Under the pieces are notes generated by a model that saw nothing but the letters and a program-made list of their open reading frames with translations, made no database searches and was not told the DNA's origin. Source: Bacteroidaceae bacterium (GTDB lineage: Bacteria; Bacteroidota; Bacteroidia; Bacteroidales; Bacteroidaceae). From it: a DNA stretch of 49,596 bases. The stretch spans positions 1 through 49,596 of the forward strand of contig JAGCGS010000044.1 of the NCBI GenBank assembly GCA_017649485.1, in the 5' to 3' direction. Below, in pieces: positions 7,386 through 14,551 of this stretch; position 1 is the first letter of the stretch; the number at the start of each line of letters is the position of its first letter. The translations under genes were made by a program, and so were the position numbers.

Positions 7386-10300
7386 TTATTCCATTGGTTT
7401 GATCATCGACTCGATGAAGGCGATTTCGTCTTGTGAGAGATTGTACTTCTTGTAGAGTTCCTCGTCCGTCCAGGGCTTAGTGAAGTCTTGGAGGGGAACG
7501 AAACTATATGCTGGTAGAGACATACTTTGAGTTGTAGTCTTTGTCAATACTAAAAACCTAAAAAATTTTGTTTTTATATAACCAAGTAAGTTTTCTGCTT
7601 CTTCTTTAGCTAACACTCTATCAGGTGGTAATGCTACTACATAAGTATTAGAACTACAAGATCCTGGCTCACTTATTTTTGGTTTTCCAATAATAATAGA
7701 CCCTGGATTACCAGAACGGGGTAATAAGACCTTATAACTATCAACAGATTGAACATTTTTGGGAATATCATTTTTTGCTATCCAATAATATCCACCGTGC
7801 GCATAAAGTTTTACATCACTATCATTCGCTTTCATTGAATGTATAGGTATAAAATCAGAACCATCCGCTGTTTGGATTCGGCCATTATAATCATCATCCC
7901 ATTCTAATTTTGTATGGAATCCAAAGTATCTACCTGCATTTAGCCAAGTTGACAACAAGGCTTCATTTTTTATCTTAACCTTATATAAAACAGAAATTTG
8001 CGCATCACTTCTTATGAAAGTATTAACCCCATCTTCTAATAGAGGTCGTTCTGTTTTTGTTATTAAACCATTGTGATGCGAAGATACTATACATGCACCA
8101 TGATGTTTACAATCCCATAGCAAATAACATATACCACCCTTAATCTCAACACCTGGGAAACAATCACTAGCATTATAATAATCATGTAAAATTGATATTC
8201 TATCATCCATTAACATCTTTTCTCTAAAAGAATCTAAACCACGACCACCAGACAACCAACGTGAAGGCATAATCATAGAAATAAAAGATGGTTTTACCTG
8301 TATAGCTATATCTAAAAAATAGTTATATATAGGAGTAGCGCTAGCACCATTTCCCCCATCCATCACTTGATACGGTGGATTCCCTACTATTGCATCAAAT
8401 TTCATATTCTCATTATTGTTTATTTTCCAGAACCGTTTGCCATCTTTGAGAGTGTTGACAACAAGTTCTGGTCGGGTTGTTATATTTTCAATTAAATCAG
8501 GGTAATAGGCAGCATTGACTTTTGTCTTACGGAAGCCTGCCAAAGTGCGTTTGGTGATGCTCATTGCCATAGGGGTCTTGCAAACCACCAAGATATTTTC
8601 TTCTATCGTGGCATCCCACAAACTCATTGCAAAGCCATGATTCACCTCACCATACTTGGCCTTAGCTGCATCTACTCTACTCCTATATATATTATACGCC
8701 ACATAAAGCGGATAGAGACCACTCTTGGAATTGATCTCCAATATATGGCTATCTGGTTGGAACACATCTGCTGTTACCTTGCCTTGACGCACATAACGAG
8801 GCACCTGCAAGGTTTCCTTAAACTCCTCATCATAAAAACACCATCCACCCAAGCAGTCACTCATGTGCATATTCACCACTCGCCAAGGGGTCAGCACAGT
8901 TTCCTTATCTGGGTTGCGGAAAGTGTTGAAAATGGCTGCTATGCGCTCGATGCGTTCTTCAATGGTGAACTTGTCAGCAGCTTTAGCCATTTCACGAATG
9001 CGCTTTCCTGCCTCACGGAAAATATCTGGGTCGTAATATTTCTTGAACTTTTCAAACTTTTCCTTGTCTACCCCTTTTGGCATGAATTCCCCCCAAGACT
9101 GGTCATCAATCAATGAGGCAAAATTATCAATAGTAATATCTTCTTGCTCGTTCTTCAACTCAGCACCATAGATAAGTAGAGGCATACGGATAGAAATACC
9201 CCGAAGGATGCTGATGGCATTTCGACGCTGATTACTCATGGCTTTTAGCTCATCAAGTCTGGCCTGTTCTTCCGGAGTCCGTTCTTTCTTGGACTTCTTT
9301 TCCAGGCGTTCTTTCTCATCATACTGTTCTTTGGTAAAGCCTTGATTGTTCACATCAATTTCACCTGTTTTGGCCATAGCTTTTGTGGTGCCGATGGTTT
9401 TCTTCAAGTCTTCGAAGTCGCGCAGCTCCACTTCTGTTAGCTTCAACAGTTCGTCATTATAAAGAGCTCCATCTTCAAAACCACACTGAACCACTTTTTC
9501 TATCTGTGCTTTCTTCAGCTGCCCCATCATCTTATCTACATTGTAAGGTTTCATCTGCGAACCCTCAATGCTGATAATCGGACAGAAATTTAGGAAATCG
9601 CCCAAGATTCTACGATCTTCCTCTGTCTGCTTTCCAGCTTTTGCACTTACTTTTGCTGTTTCTGCCAAGACTCTAAGCGTTCGATCTGGAGCAAAGTCAA
9701 AAGCATAGCATTGTTCCTTCATACGTCCATGACAGGTAAATGGTGTCTGTACACGGAAGATGGTCTGCATATACTGCGCAGCTGAAGTACTGAAAGAACC
9801 TGCCATCATAAACACGGCTGTCCAGGGCTTAATGCTAACACCTGTTGTTAAGCGTCCACAACTAAGGGTAATGGTATAGGTTTCATCAGGGTCATCACCA
9901 ATGGCTTTATTCACCATCTGCAGAGCTTCAGCATTCTCTTCATCCTCATCGCCATTACCAGCCACATTTACAGTTTGGAACATACCAAACACGGGGTGTG
10001 CCTTCAGCTTTGCACTCAAAGCCCTTGCTGCCTTTACGCCAGGTACTACCCATAGTGTATGACGGAATATCCTACGGAAGGTTTCATTTGTATATGGATA
10101 AAGGCTACCTTTATCTTCTTTGCAGAGAAGATTCAAGAATCTATCTACATCACCGTCATGTATAAATGTATCATCTTCCCTGGTACGGAAGAACTCACGG
10201 AAATTAAAAGCCCTTTCATCTTCCACAAACTCACTCATTAGGGTACCAAGGTCATAAGTATAGATGTTGATGGCGGGAAGAGAAGCGTAAGGATTGGGCT

Positions 10301-11351
10301 CATAAGGATTATCCACTGCCCAAGCCTGTTTTGCCTTCTGTTCCATCACATAGTCCCATGTAAAGATTTCCTCCTCTGAATAATCATCAAAGAGGTTAAA
10401 TGGTGTGCCTGACAACTGAAGTACTTTCGTTGTGGGTTTAATCAGTTCACTCAACACATTCTGACCCAATTCTGTTTTAGTGCCTTCATGCGCCTCATCC
10501 ACAATCACAAAATCCCAGACAGCTTTGAATATTTCATTGTTCTTATCGAACTTACCTCCTACCTGCTCAGAGCCTCGCAGGTCTTGCATGGATGCAAAAT
10601 AGACAAACTTACATCCTTTATTTGCCAACTGTTCCAGTTTTCCGAACAGTTCACCATTGCCTTTTGAACCATAATGGTAGTCTTTACGGTCATAAAAAAT
10701 CTTGCCAAAATCCTCAAACCACCCTTTATCCACTACAGGGCGATGGGTTAAAATCAAAGTGCGGGTAAACTCTTCTTCTTTCACTACCTGCAGGGCAGAA
10801 AGCGTCTTGCCAAATCGCATCTTGGCATTCCACAACATCTGATTGCCTTTCTTGAATCGCTTGCGAGTCTTATCGATGGCTTCTTGCTGCTCAGGTCGGA
10901 AGATAATAGGTGATTGTCCGATAGTTATATCTGAAGGATGCAGACTTGTTTCACCCTTCTTAACGGCACTAATAGCTTTCTTGATCGTTTCCAAGTCACA
11001 ACAGAACCACTCATCTGCTCCTTTTACTCCATCAAACTCTTTTTTCTTGATGCCTGAACGTTCCAGCACTCGGTGCACCTGCTTGTCGTTAAAAGTCATA
11101 ATCATGCCTCCACGCACAAAGATGCTTATCTCAGTATATAACAACTGATAAGCGATGCCAGCTGTCTTGGTATATTGGCGAATGCGTTTATGCGCTGATG
11201 CTTGCAGAGCTTCCGTATTATTGAAAAGGTTACTCCCGTCGTCCTCGTCAATGGTGGTCTCTCCTACTTTTAGACAGTCTTTATGCCGTTCGTCATCTAT
11301 GGCGAAAACATAAATCAGCTTTGATTTCAGTGAGGATTCAAATGTAGCCAT
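7386..11351 (-). CDS. Restriction-modification protein: GIY-YIG-like N-terminus, SF2 helicase, N6-adenine methylase, 1321 aa
   Basis: Residues about 12-120 resemble a T5orf172/GIY-YIG nuclease-like domain (YVFAIDDERHKDCLKVGETT). Residues about 150-560 form a superfamily 2 helicase: a variant Walker A AKMRFGKT near 176-183, DEAH at 285-288, motif III as LQLSGTPF near 310, and later helicase motifs around TLSCGRLTTGV. Residues about 860-1300 are an Eco57I-like methyltransferase with a motif I-like LEINSKSGLYPLYVA near 870 and the adenine-methylase motif DAIVGNPPYQV near 990. The downstream part is a target-recognition-like segment. It is cotranscribed, 5 bp away, with a methylase-like subunit. 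Together they probably cut unmodified DNA and modify self DNA. The specificity cannot be read. Confidence 0.8.
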   Translation of the reverse strand: MATFESSLKSKLIYVFAIDDERHKDCLKVGETTIDEDDGSNLFNNTEALQASAHKRIRQYTKTAGIAYQLLYTEISIFVRGGMIMTFNDKQVHRVLERSGIKKKEFDGVKGADEWFCCDLETIKKAISAVKKGETSLHPSDITIGQSPIIFRPEQQEAIDKTRKRFKKGNQMLWNAKMRFGKTLSALQVVKEEEFTRTLILTHRPVVDKGWFEDFGKIFYDRKDYHYGSKGNGELFGKLEQLANKGCKFVYFASMQDLRGSEQVGGKFDKNNEIFKAVWDFVIVDEAHEGTKTELGQNVLSELIKPTTKVLQLSGTPFNLFDDYSEEEIFTWDYVMEQKAKQAWAVDNPYEPNPYASLPAINIYTYDLGTLMSEFVEDERAFNFREFFRTREDDTFIHDGDVDRFLNLLCKEDKGSLYPYTNETFRRIFRHTLWVVPGVKAARALSAKLKAHPVFGMFQTVNVAGNGDEDEENAEALQMVNKAIGDDPDETYTITLSCGRLTTGVSIKPWTAVFMMAGSFSTSAAQYMQTIFRVQTPFTCHGRMKEQCYAFDFAPDRTLRVLAETAKVSAKAGKQTEEDRRILGDFLNFCPIISIEGSQMKPYNVDKMMGQLKKAQIEKVVQCGFEDGALYNDELLKLTEVELRDFEDLKKTIGTTKAMAKTGEIDVNNQGFTKEQYDEKERLEKKSKKERTPEEQARLDELKAMSNQRRNAISILRGISIRMPLLIYGAELKNEQEDITIDNFASLIDDQSWGEFMPKGVDKEKFEKFKKYYDPDIFREAGKRIREMAKAADKFTIEERIERIAAIFNTFRNPDKETVLTPWRVVNMHMSDCLGGWCFYDEEFKETLQVPRYVRQGKVTADVFQPDSHILEINSKSGLYPLYVAYNIYRSRVDAAKAKYGEVNHGFAMSLWDATIEENILVVCKTPMAMSITKRTLAGFRKTKVNAAYYPDLIENITTRPELVVNTLKDGKRFWKINNNENMKFDAIVGNPPYQVMDGGNGASATPIYNYFLDIAIQVKPSFISMIMPSRWLSGGRGLDSFREKMLMDDRISILHDYYNASDCFPGVEIKGGICYLLWDCKHHGACIVSSHHNGLITKTERPLLEDGVNTFIRSDAQISVLYKVKIKNEALLSTWLNAGRYFGFHTKLEWDDDYNGRIQTADGSDFIPIHSMKANDSDVKLYAHGGYYWIAKNDIPKNVQSVDSYKVLLPRSGNPGSIIIGKPKISEPGSCSSNTYVVALPPDRVLAKEEAENLLGYIKTKFFRFLVLTKTTTQSMSLPAYSFVPLQDFTKPWTDEELYKKYNLSQDEIAFIESMIKPME

Positions 11352-11356
11352 GGTTG

Positions 11357-12370
11357 TTATTTGATTAGGTCGATAAATCTTATTTTCCGATTATTCTCTC
11401 CAGTCTTGGGGTCTTTGTGACCCCAATCCCTTAGCAAGCAGTAAACGCCATTGTGTAGTCTGATGTTGTCTTGTTGACATCCTTTGCAATGTTCGATACA
11501 TTCTGTCTCTCCAAACAAATCCATCTCTTTTACCACTATTCCTTCCTTGCAACTATTAGGCACAACGCCTTTCAGACCATCCATTTGCCAGATGTTCCAT
11601 GAGATGATGTAAGCTATGTAGTTGATGCTTTTTAGAAGGGGAGCCTTGCCAAACTTGGCCTGATAATATTCTATGAAAGTCCAAAGCATGGCCTCACGAG
11701 CTAATAGCAGGTTGTCACCTTGCCATTCAAAGCCGTATGTGTTTTTATAAGCCATTTGAGCCCATTCAAGCCATTCGCCACTTTCATCTACATTTTCACT
11801 AACGACGCGCAGCTTTCTGTCGAGCAATCCAATGCGATGCTGCAAAGGGATGGGATTTCCTGTGGTTGTATCATAACGGCTCACCAAATAAGGAGCCTCC
11901 CCACATGTCATTTCCATACGAGTAGCACGAACATAATCTTTCCAAGTCTTGCCTTCAGGGAATTCTATTTTTAGAGTATTATCTTGCCAAGTGTGATTGG
12001 CGTTGTCTTCTGTATTGAATACATCTTTTCTGCCGAACCATGCTTCATCCACCAGGTTGTTTTGAGCATTACACACCCATGAAGGAGTGAACACCTCAGC
12101 CATATCTTTGGCACGATCCGTCTGTTCTTCTTTGGTTTTCAGTACACGAGGCCTGATTACCATCCCATGTTTCCCTGTTATCAGAGCAGGGAGTATCTGT
12201 GAATGGTAATCATATTCCGAGCCGAGCGCTTCATAGTCATGCGTCGCCCAGAAGATATTGCGTCCTGTGGTATGGTCACGAAGTAGTGTGTCAAGCACCT
12301 CCGACGACAATGCCATCAGGTCATCCTCCCTAATATCAATTAAAGAAGGACTTTCGTCTTTGTTTGGCAT
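11357..12370 (-). CDS. Restriction-modification subunit M-like protein, 337 aa
   Basis: The protein shows AEVFTPSWVCN near residue 91, the FTP motif X of N6-adenine DNA methylases, then EMTCGEAPYLVSRYD near residue 155 in the place of the AdoMet-binding motif I, and GDNLLLAREA further on. It lacks a recognisable NPPY motif; that motif is instead in the large partner encoded 5 bp downstream. Related proteins in gut Bacteroidales and Firmicutes are annotated as restriction endonuclease subunit M and sit next to a nuclease/helicase protein. The start at 12370 (MPNKDESPSL) lies immediately after a very long hairpin in the leader, so its translation is probably controlled by RNA structure. Confidence 0.75.
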   Translation of the reverse strand: MPNKDESPSLIDIREDDLMALSSEVLDTLLRDHTTGRNIFWATHDYEALGSEYDYHSQILPALITGKHGMVIRPRVLKTKEEQTDRAKDMAEVFTPSWVCNAQNNLVDEAWFGRKDVFNTEDNANHTWQDNTLKIEFPEGKTWKDYVRATRMEMTCGEAPYLVSRYDTTTGNPIPLQHRIGLLDRKLRVVSENVDESGEWLEWAQMAYKNTYGFEWQGDNLLLAREAMLWTFIEYYQAKFGKAPLLKSINYIAYIISWNIWQMDGLKGVVPNSCKEGIVVKEMDLFGETECIEHCKGCQQDNIRLHNGVYCLLRDWGHKDPKTGENNRKIRFIDLIK

Positions 12371-12690
12371 TTTGCGCTTATAGCTTTTGGCATAAGCACT
12401 TATCGGATTCTTTGGGCTTACAAGTAAGAGGCCTCTATGAACGAAAGAAGCGTGAACAAACGCTTATCGAACATAGAGGCCCTGAGAAGCCCAGTTGAAT
12501 GATAAGTGATGCCCACGCCATAAGCGCAGACATTCACAATTATCGTTATTCAACTTCCAGAAATTTCTCAGGTTTCTATGTTCACCGAATAACTGCTAAT
12601 GCTGTTATTATATACCCACTAAAATCATACCGCCACCCTGCGCTCAGGGATTCTTGATATATTGTGTCCTTTAGGACAATCGGCAGTACT
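12371..12690 (-). promoter_or_regulatory. 320-nt structured leader of the restriction-modification operon
   Basis: Between the promoter and the start codon lie six nested perfect stems: TGCGCTTAT 12373-12381/12520-12528; GGCAT 12389-12393/12509-12513; CACTTATC 12397-12404/12501-12508; TGGGCTT 12413-12419/12487-12493; GGCCTCTATG 12430-12439/12472-12481; AAGCGT 12448-12453/12460-12465. The central strand 12469-12505 can instead pair with 12540-12583 (GAACATAGA, CTGAGAA, GTTGAAT and GATAA all have complements there). The outer stem ends 2 bases before the ATG at 12370. A 6-codon frame reading MILVGI (12628-12608) lies in the early leader. The layout suggests a switch between two folds, one of which would hide the start region. 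Confidence 0.6.
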
Positions 12691-12696
12691 TGATTG

Positions 12697-12726
12697 CAAA
12701 GATAAAGAAATCATTTTTCAATTCAA
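12697..12726 (-). promoter_or_regulatory. Promoter of the restriction-modification operon
   Basis: The minus strand has ATTG (TTG is plus CAA 12724-12726) and TATCTTTG (plus 12697-12704) with 19 bp between. Transcription would start near 12690, about 320 nt before the first start codon. Confidence 0.6.
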
Positions 12727-12828
12727 TACTTTTCAAGCAGTTTTTTCTTTAGGATGTCTCTTTCAATCATAATTTCTTGGGATAAATCTGCCACAGGGGT
12801 AGCAATAAAAGAACGGATTATCACATTC

Positions 12829-13065: not shown

Positions 13066-13096
13066 TTGCATTTCTTAGATAAAAGCATTATCTTTG
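13065..13096 (+). promoter_or_regulatory. Promoter of the AAA ATPase gene
   Basis: -33 TTTG (13065-13068) and -7 TATCTTTG (13089-13096) are 20 bp apart; the start codon is at 13118. Confidence 0.7.
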
Positions 13097-13117
13097 CAGG
13101 TGAAAGGAAATATTGAT

Positions 13118-14551
13118 ATGGATAAGAACTTGTTTATCGGACGTGAATATGAAATCAGGCAGTTGGAGAAATATCGCAACAGCAAGGAGTCGGAATTTGT
13201 CATCGTTTATGGACGCAGACGAGTGGGCAAGACCTTCCTCATCAAAGAGTTCTTTGCTGACACATACGATTTTAAGGTGACTGGTCTCTACAAAAAACCT
13301 AAGAAAGTGCAACTTAAGAACTTCTATCTGGCTTTATTAGAGTATGGCTCGGATATTAAACGCATCCCATCCGATTGGCTTGAAGCCTTTGATGCGCTGA
13401 AGAAACTGCTTAAGGGAATTAAAGAAGAGCGTAAGAAGATAGTATTCATTGATGAACTCCCTTGGCTTGATACTCGCCAGAGCGATTTTTTGTCAGCCTT
13501 TGAAGGATTTTGGAATGGATGGGGGGCTCAGCAAAACGATATCATGCTGGTGGTTTGCGGATCTGCCACAACATGGATAACCAACAAAATCTTGTCAGAC
13601 AAGGGGGGCTTGTTCAACCGTGCCGCTCGTAGATTGTACCTGATGCCATTCACCCTTAAAGAAACAGAGCAATACTTGAATTCTAGAGGCATATACTGGA
13701 GTCGTTATGATATTGTGGAATGCTATATGATTATGGGGGGAATACCTTATTACCTGAAACTCTTAGATAACGAGCTCTCCTATCTGACCAATATCGACAA
13801 TATCTTCTTCAAGCAAAAGGGATCTTTGTGGGATGAATTCGACCATCTATATGAAACATTGTTCGGTGAATCCAAGTCTTATATGAAAGTTATAGAGGCT
13901 CTTTCAACGAAGAAATCTGGTCTGACAAGGATAGAGATTATGAAAGCGACAGGCATGGAGGACAATGGCCTACTAACAGATGTGTTGAGGAATCTGAAAG
14001 ACAGTAACTTCATCAGGGCATATAACACTTTTGGTTATGAGGAGAAGAATGTGGTTTATCAGCTTGCCGACTATTTTACCCTTTTCTACTTACGTTTCCT
14101 GAAGGGAAAGCAGAATCCCGATGAACATTTTTGGACTCACTTTCTTGACAATCCATCAAAAAGTGGATGGGCAGGGCAAACTTTCGAGCAAGTGTGTAAA
14201 GACCATATCGCTCAAATCAAGAAAGCAGCTGGCATGAATGCCATTTTAACTGACATCTCTTCATGGCGTGGAGAAACGGAAACGGGTAAGGCTCAAATTG
14301 ACCTGGTGATTGACCGACGTGACCGTACCATCAATATTTGCGAAATAAAGTGTTCTTCTTGTGAATATGCCATTACGGCTGAATATGAGGTGACTTTGCG
14401 AAAGAAAATGCAGGTGTTCCGTGAAGCCACAAAGACGAAGAAAGCCTTACATTTGATGATGATTACCACTTACGGGGTGAGACAGAACTCACATAGTGGC
14501 ATCATTCAATCGCAACTCACTATGGACGACCTTTTTGTTAGTGTGGATTGA
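13118..14551 (+). CDS. AAA ATPase with C-terminal DUF234-type nuclease-like domain, 477 aa
   Basis: The ATG at 13118 (MDKNLFIGREYE) is chosen because the -7 box ends at 13096, so upstream codons would not be transcribed in full. Residues about 1-230 are an archaeal-type ATPase (PF01637-like): FIGREYEIRQL, Walker A VYGRRRVGKTFL near 34-45, Walker B KIVFIDELPWL near 115 and sensor CGSATTW. A winged-helix-like linker follows. Residues about 340-477 match DUF234, with a PD-(D/E)xK-like pattern in QIDLVIDRRDRTINICEIKC. Such proteins are frequent in Bacteroidales and archaea, often beside restriction genes; their role is unproven. The tandem dyads at its promoter suggest tight control. It is transcribed away from the restriction operon. 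Confidence 0.8.
   Translation: MDKNLFIGREYEIRQLEKYRNSKESEFVIVYGRRRVGKTFLIKEFFADTYDFKVTGLYKKPKKVQLKNFYLALLEYGSDIKRIPSDWLEAFDALKKLLKGIKEERKKIVFIDELPWLDTRQSDFLSAFEGFWNGWGAQQNDIMLVVCGSATTWITNKILSDKGGLFNRAARRLYLMPFTLKETEQYLNSRGIYWSRYDIVECYMIMGGIPYYLKLLDNELSYLTNIDNIFFKQKGSLWDEFDHLYETLFGESKSYMKVIEALSTKKSGLTRIEIMKATGMEDNGLLTDVLRNLKDSNFIRAYNTFGYEEKNVVYQLADYFTLFYLRFLKGKQNPDEHFWTHFLDNPSKSGWAGQTFEQVCKDHIAQIKKAAGMNAILTDISSWRGETETGKAQIDLVIDRRDRTINICEIKCSSCEYAITAEYEVTLRKKMQVFREATKTKKALHLMMITTYGVRQNSHSGIIQSQLTMDDLFVSVD

Follow-up and report, generated by a model that had tools for sequence, protein, structure and literature searches.

The window, the whole stretch of 49,596 nucleotides of Bacteroidaceae DNA that was analysed, harbours on its minus strand a two-gene restriction-modification (RM) operon. 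The first gene (11357..12370) encodes a Type II methyltransferase-like protein of 337 aa, the 'subunit M' P0001 (PADLOC MTase_II, PDLC03390, E 1.2e-122), for which no Pfam match was found. The second gene (7386..11351), 5 nt away and behind the same leader, encodes P0002, a protein of 1321 aa with ResIII helicase (Pfam, 6.1e-13) and Eco57I methylase (8.6e-33) domains. The methylase seems to be split: the NPPY motif, which we take to be catalytic, is found in the helicase protein P0002, and P0001 looks like another part. The first ~150 residues of P0002 gave no Pfam match; they are presumably GIY-YIG-like, a candidate assignment. The divergent neighbour on the plus strand (13094-14551) encodes an AAA ATPase matching the PADLOC candidate PDC-S27 (1.5e-196), suggesting that this may be a defence region.

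The operon is preceded by a leader of approximately 320 nt, lying on the minus strand between a promoter box (12704-12697) and the ATG at 12370. The box, TATCTTTG, fits the consensus of the Bacteroidetes -7 box, and the transcript start is predicted at ~12690, consistent with the promoter proposed in the earlier note. In the wider family described below, 81 of 88 leaders have a TAnnTTTG box no further than 260 nt upstream; the corresponding rate in 1224 control windows, drawn from these loci and in many cases coding, was 9.4%. The 5' domain of the leader (12627..12690), predicted from fold and alignment, consists of a terminal stem AGTACTGCCG...GGCGGTAT with two inner hairpins and is variable or absent among homologs. 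It is followed by a small hairpin, hp0 (12589..12608; ATAAC...GTTAT), with 94.1% of its alignment cells paired and a two-sided change in one of five pairs. Strand A (12566..12583), the partner of strand B, comprises A1 (GAACATAG, 12576-12583) and the A-loop CCTGAGA (12566-12572); it is transcribed before B and C, as had been pointed out earlier. Pair counts in leader alignments delineate a variable stem V (12493..12555), formed by 12548-12555 with 12493-12500, and the hairpin H that it encloses, in which H5 (12524-12532) pairs with 12510-12518. The latter segment, the 3' arm of H, is called t5 and doubles in the family as the 5' arm of a terminator-like hairpin. Strand B (12469..12487) harbours TCTCAGG (12481-12487) and CTATGTTC (12469-12476), and covariation and base triples indicate either A or C as its partner. 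A terminator-like 3' arm, weak in the window, follows at 12442..12458 and consists of t3 (TGTTCACGC, 12450-12458) and an imperfect U-run (UUCUUUCG, 12442-12449). Strand C (12373..12439), with segments 12430-12439, 12413-12419, 12397-12404 and 12373-12384, is the predicted partner of B and H in the full-length fold.

Competing folds of the leader

The minus strand from 12690 to 12340 folds with an energy of -121.9 kcal/mol, compared to -85.0 +/- 4.5 kcal/mol for 100 dinucleotide shuffles, none of which matched the leader (z -8.27). A nested hairpin runs from 12528 to 12373 and indeed ends 2 nt before the ATG. The earlier description of six perfect stems with 45 bp was right about the presence of this hairpin but undercounted it, since 58 pairs in nine uninterrupted runs were found, and its arms are partly imperfect, e.g. 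87% and 92% complementary. The second, upstream complements that had been claimed for the middle strand were recovered as three fully complementary segment pairs (12575-12583 with 12469-12477, 12565-12572 with 12481-12488, and 12548-12555 with 12493-12500). The energy of -121.9 kcal/mol is reached with B:C paired, and the best value is -110.3 kcal/mol when B:C is forbidden. A local hairpin just 5' of the AUG remains in the latter case, so that a distinction between an open and a closed start region is not clear-cut. In prefix folds, which represent minimum-energy, equilibrium folding of growing chains and not kinetics, the whole A:B hairpin is formed once the chain reaches 12469-12445, A1 is replaced by C at ~12433, and the V/H part yields only after 12361.

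Relatives of P0001 were collected from genomes of the family (41 of 301 with a match), genome contigs (best 80 of 588) and viral contigs (15). Blastn of the leader gave a match in 51 of 126 P0001-type loci, including two copies of the window itself; in 46 of these the best match ends no more than 3 nt from the base that precedes the start codon, and in the other 5 only the middle is covered. With seven further loci detected by a covariance model, a leader is present near the gene in 58 of the 126, some of which are duplicates or cut short upstream. The earlier note had named a lack of the stems in homologous operons as a refuting outcome: a leader accompanies these 58, but many copies are without it. 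An obligatory RNA subunit of this RM system was considered and rejected because of this count. The 51 blastn loci were reduced to 45 by dropping six duplicates, and 41 of these were aligned with MAFFT; L041 and L080 (near-identical to others) and L102 and L077 (diverged) were left out.

Both of the proposed mutually exclusive folds show compensating changes in the 41 leaders. Fold 1, consisting of A:B, stem V and hairpin H, has 46 pairs with 93.3% of the cells paired. Two-sided changes occur in 20 of these pairs (4 of 500 shuffles were as high) and in 173 cells, counted as sequences and not as independent events, vs a shuffle mean of 57; covariation is 0.287, compared to 0.143 in shuffles. The number of further pair types was not above that in shuffles for fold 1 in these leaders (49 vs 51.4; 443 of 500 as high). 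Fold 2, consisting of B:C, has 47 pairs with 92.7% of the cells paired, two-sided changes in 12 pairs and in 41 cells, likewise a count of sequences (shuffle mean 13), and a covariation of 0.132 vs 0.105; close to the start codon, B:C hardly varies over much of its length and says little in this respect. Neither fold was equalled by any of 500 shuffles in percentage paired, cell count or covariation score, and slid controls were far lower. At one B site the A/B/C triple is T/A/T in 18 leaders, C/G/C in 14, C/G/T in 6 and other in 3, and at a neighbouring site it is A/T/A in 30, G/C/G in 4, A/T/G in 2, C/G/C in 2 and other in 3. Bases in B thus co-vary with their partners in A as well as in C, indicating that one strand is held to two partners.

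The A:B structure was also evaluated in 67 diverse leaders, i.e. the window, five P0001-type loci and 61 loci hand-picked for diversity from the 90 family loci (L127-L216) described below. In this alignment, which was fitted to the covariance model and hence leans towards A:B, 93.6% of the cells are paired, with 843 two-sided cells vs 243 in shuffles and a covariation of 0.748 vs 0.225 shuffled and at most 0.088 slid. Two-sided changes in A1, seen in 5 of 8 pairs in the 41 leaders, extend to all 8 in the 67, and those in the A-loop from 5 of 7 pairs to all seven; the A-loop:B helix is 99.8% paired. These alignments point to two mutually exclusive structures in the leader, both of them conserved. 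A single RNAalifold consensus was not used as a model because it blends both folds. In an alternative reading, A may meet B in a loop-loop (kissing) contact beside the long A:B helix.

Distribution of the RNA and the genes behind it

R1, a covariance model trained on the A:B half of 32 of the 41 leaders, matches 229 of 399 Bacteroidaceae genomes (E <= 1e-3), often several times per genome; for P0001 itself, matches were limited to 41 of 301 family genomes. A broader model, R2, was used at E <= 1e-4, with 7-10 candidates scored per genome, and gave matches at the level of the order in 106 of 295 genomes, from 75 of 183 genera, and at that of the phylum in 44 of 395 genomes, from 19 of 170 genera. 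Some close relatives of P0001 (L034, L046 and L004; ~79-83% identical) carry, as judged by eye, a clearly different leader type, resembling the leaders of EcoRI-type methylases (L186, L187 and L189), and leaders therefore seem to be exchangeable modules.

Position and downstream genes were analyzed for 90 Bacteroidaceae loci, one of which is the window; 30 came directly from the R1 scan and 60 were picked from its listed matches mostly by score, with some complete genomes added. The RNA occupies a regular same-strand position behind the promoter box, with an ORF of at least 100 aa starting 40-140 nt downstream of the match in 78 of 87 loci. When the downstream gene was defined as the longest ORF starting within 600 nt of the match, 89 loci had an ORF of at least 60 aa. 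In 70 of these 89 it encodes a methyltransferase or RM-type helicase, and in 56 of 75 when the 14 of the window's type are set aside; this sample is biased by score, and training of R1 on leaders of window-type RM operons favours RM neighbours. The clusters comprise 17 window-type or related methyltransferases (the 14 of the window's type among them), 14 PLD/SNF2 helicases, 12 Type I-kind N6-methylases, 10 EcoRI-type and 7 MmeI-type methylases, 5 N6/N4 methylases and 4 D12 methylases, with L179 as a fifth of the D12 type. Pfam and PADLOC assignments, obtained for 79 of the 89 ORFs, agree with this (N6_Mtase 15, Eco57I 13, EcoRI_methylase 10, MmeI_Mtase 10, SNF2 8, D12 5, N6_N4 4). The PLD/SNF2 helicases were counted as RM-type by inference: three scanned helicases match the PADLOC HKD+Snf2 or DrmD models, and two loci have a gene for a Type IIG restriction-methyltransferase (1.9e-260 and 5.8e-83) directly after the helicase gene.

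The remaining downstream genes encode LRR surface proteins, acyltransferases, PAP2, DprA, DUF4011, DUF4468 and unknown proteins. In L154 an acyltransferase gene comes after the leader and the initial codons of an MmeI-type gene, by eye perhaps a replaced or decayed RM gene. Among 38 loci outside the Bacteroidaceae, inspection by eye showed RM-like N-termini in 5 (L217, L218, L220, L227 and L239), and many of the remaining loci have genes for what look like secreted proteins or lipoproteins. The downstream genes inspected in the complete genome G257 mostly encode small membrane proteins or lipoproteins. An RNA specific for RM systems, as the earlier note had it, was therefore rejected: the models match before many unrelated RM operons and before surface and lipoprotein genes as well. 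Sampling in the reverse direction, from methylase genes, is less biased than sampling by the model. It found the leader before 7 of 53 genes, i.e. 5 of 23 EcoRI-type places (partly gene fragments) and 2 of 30 N6_Mtase genes, indicating that the leader is common but optional.

A loosely defined U-run follows the match in 81 of the 90 leaders. The best 5' arm for a stem before this U-run begins at hit position 83-99, which is the t5 arm of H, in 54 of the 81, and the terminator-like stem is better than all 20 shuffles in 50 of the 90. With t5 fixed as the H arm, t5:t3 has 7.54 of 8 pairs in the 63 of 67 leaders with a U-run, compared to 7.16 (maximum 7.30 of 1000) when tails were dealt among leaders with the site chosen anew, and 5.38 with shuffled tails. 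All 8 positions are paired in 47 of the 63, vs 27.9 when permuted, and H5:t5 has 7.88 of 8 pairs vs 7.51. As t5 pairs with both H5 and t3, it appears to serve H in one fold and the terminator-like stem in the other within the family. The window's own copy is not exceptional in this respect: its t5:t3 stem scores 8.0, with a mean of 4.9 and a best of 9.0 for 20 shuffles. Of the 15 leaders nearest to the window (L127-L141), t5 is used by 3, including the window, hit position 70-82 by 11 and position 130 by one, and their terminator arm scores are mostly near those of shuffles.

Several smaller observations concern the 3' part of the leader. A second group of P0001-type leaders (L007, L010, L014 and others) has, by eye, a perfect U-run and a further GGGTATC copy that can pair with the start codon region; R2 finds only L020 of this group. 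In several of the leaders L307-L316, from two genomes (G257 and G336), t3 (e.g. AGTTCCCACGC) has a complement shortly past the terminator (e.g. GGGAACTGG), which offers, as judged by eye, a further alternative pairing.

Proposed mode of action and its alternatives

We regard the leader as a regulatory RNA that acts in cis and adopts several states, and as a member of a large, uncatalogued attenuator-type family of the Bacteroidota; we assign this reading a probability of roughly 0.63. What sequence shows is the covarying pairings, a promoter box, the location ahead of genes and, for the family at large, an arm resembling that of a terminator. From these we infer that the pairings alter expression, in the direction outlined here, and that the A/B region is the target of some protein, RNA or metabolite. 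Transcription would start near 12690, and strand A, made first, would pair with B, with hairpin H and stem V forming as well. The long A:B/H hairpin would in most of the family lock t5 and act as the default antiterminator; when A is kept from B by a bound protein, another RNA or altered polymerase or ribosome traffic, t5 would be set free and form the t5:t3 terminator. In RNA ending at the U-run, all 78 leaders tested favour A:B/H over the other fold (-62.0 vs -47.6 kcal/mol on average), so that such a switch would need an outside event or factor. In the window's subgroup the terminator arm has apparently largely decayed, and strand C (12373-12439) would displace A and pair with B and H. With C paired to a point 2 nt short of the start codon, the full-length RNA reaches its most stable predicted fold, which probably lowers translation. 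For this subgroup masking near the start codon fits better than a terminator, and C is more likely to be the control.

It is unlikely, in our view, that the RNA is mainly a free-standing, trans-acting small RNA with its own promoter and terminator, with nearness to genes as a by-product and the variable A-loop/B sequences as an address for partners. The frequent promoter box and U-run (81 of 88 and 81 of 90 leaders) would suit such an RNA, as would its presence in 3 to 21 copies in nine chosen genomes and the concentration of variability among 14 paralogs from two related genomes in their A1, A-loop and V columns. However, the same-strand ORF 40-140 nt downstream (78 of 87 loci) and, in the window's subgroup, pairing that runs up to the start codon argue against it, and the variability may be neutral drift under a constraint on structure only as well as selection against cross-talk between copies. 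A cis-acting leader remains the preferred reading here.

Autoregulation as in ribosomal-protein leaders, with the A:B/H hairpin serving as an operator bound by a product of its own operon, is improbable. The long hairpin shows by eye recurring internal-loop sequences beside variable helices, and first genes in the Bacteroidaceae sample mostly encode nucleic-acid enzymes, both of which would suit an operator; the RNA, however, also precedes genes for lipoproteins, LRR surface proteins, acyltransferases and PAP2 proteins, and no shared product could therefore bind all copies.

Copies within one genome are ~74-87% identical over roughly 130-670 nt. Many R2 matches among those listed (in G476, G414, G570, G467 and G588) lie within a few hundred bases of contig starts, which suggests repeats that break assemblies. 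These properties, and leader types that do not track the gene (L034 and L046 with their EcoRI-type leaders, by eye), recall a mobile or repetitive, MITE-like, promoter-carrying element that inserts in front of accessory genes and owes its folding to being palindromic. The distance to the gene start is fairly constant, however, and neither compensating changes over large divergence nor the maintenance of two alternative pairings is expected of a passive element, which makes this explanation very improbable. That the leader is an RM-special switch timing methylase against nuclease after entry into a new host is the least probable of all, although it precedes a methylase subunit gene, RM-type first genes dominate the Bacteroidaceae sample and the prefix folds change order, since the RNA is not RM-specific and a single leader before two genes 5 nt apart could hardly separate methylase from nuclease in time.

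Transcription attenuators and antiterminator leaders include trp-type leaders, T-boxes and the expression platforms of riboswitches. The RNA resembles them in having its own promoter, mutually exclusive hairpins that share strands and a comparable spacing from the start codon; much of the family also has a terminator-like arm with a U-run before the gene. Unlike these, it has no conserved leader ORF (leader peptide) as judged by eye in the leader alignments, matches no known aptamer, keeps a hypervariable A:B helix paired, serves many unrelated genes within one family and has a weak terminator in the window's subgroup. It also has no match in Rfam, in agreement with the earlier note's impression of novelty: Rfam 15 covariance models at the gathering score gave no match in the window and only two tRNAs in 20 loci, and at E up to 10 the region 12300-12760 gave only SNORD112 (7.1). 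Among the open-licence papers listed by literature searches, none on an RNA leader of Bacteroidota RM operons was seen. Leaders of the attenuator type are known as a kind; what appears to be new is this family and its occurrence before unrelated RM types.

To our knowledge, little is understood of what keeps restriction and other defence operons safe and of what switches them on, and most regulators described are proteins. C proteins and RptR are DNA-binding proteins controlling RM operons (PMC12255303). The kind of target is the same here, whereas the candidate control element is an RNA common to unrelated RM types. FopS and GibS form a Bacteroides small-RNA family, of which FopS has been deposited in Rfam; FopS is described as having a single-stranded 5' stretch and a terminator hairpin and as acting in trans on susC mRNAs (PMC11697453). 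The leader RNA is likewise a multi-copy, Bacteroides-type family with its own promoters and, in much of the family, a terminator-like hairpin, but unlike FopS as described there it is long, branched and located in gene leaders, and it has no Rfam 15 match. Structured RNA candidates from the human microbiome were also found by comparative genomics, some of them upstream of genes, and the main text of that paper makes no mention of restriction, methylase or methyltransferase; an unnamed candidate in its supplementary tables could overlap the leader RNA (PMC8040213).

A wider idea, doubtful though conceivable, is that of a phylum-wide layer of control in which the leader RNA would be a plug-in switch for unrelated restriction and defence operons as well as surface genes. 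The hypervariable A-loop:B helix would then be a private address against cross-talk, and terminated leaders or foreign RNAs would tune defence genes in trans. A structured RNA family common to Type I, Type II and helicase-linked RM operons would provide one testable handle on many defence systems, and a covariance model is ready for finding such systems in the Bacteroidota, the phylum that dominates gut and rumen. The window's own genome harbours two further model matches, one in L255 (835-978, plus strand; E 1.1e-12) and a weak one in L256 (minus strand; E 2.1e-5), located upstream of a 1026-aa lipoprotein-like ORF and a 358-aa ORF, respectively.
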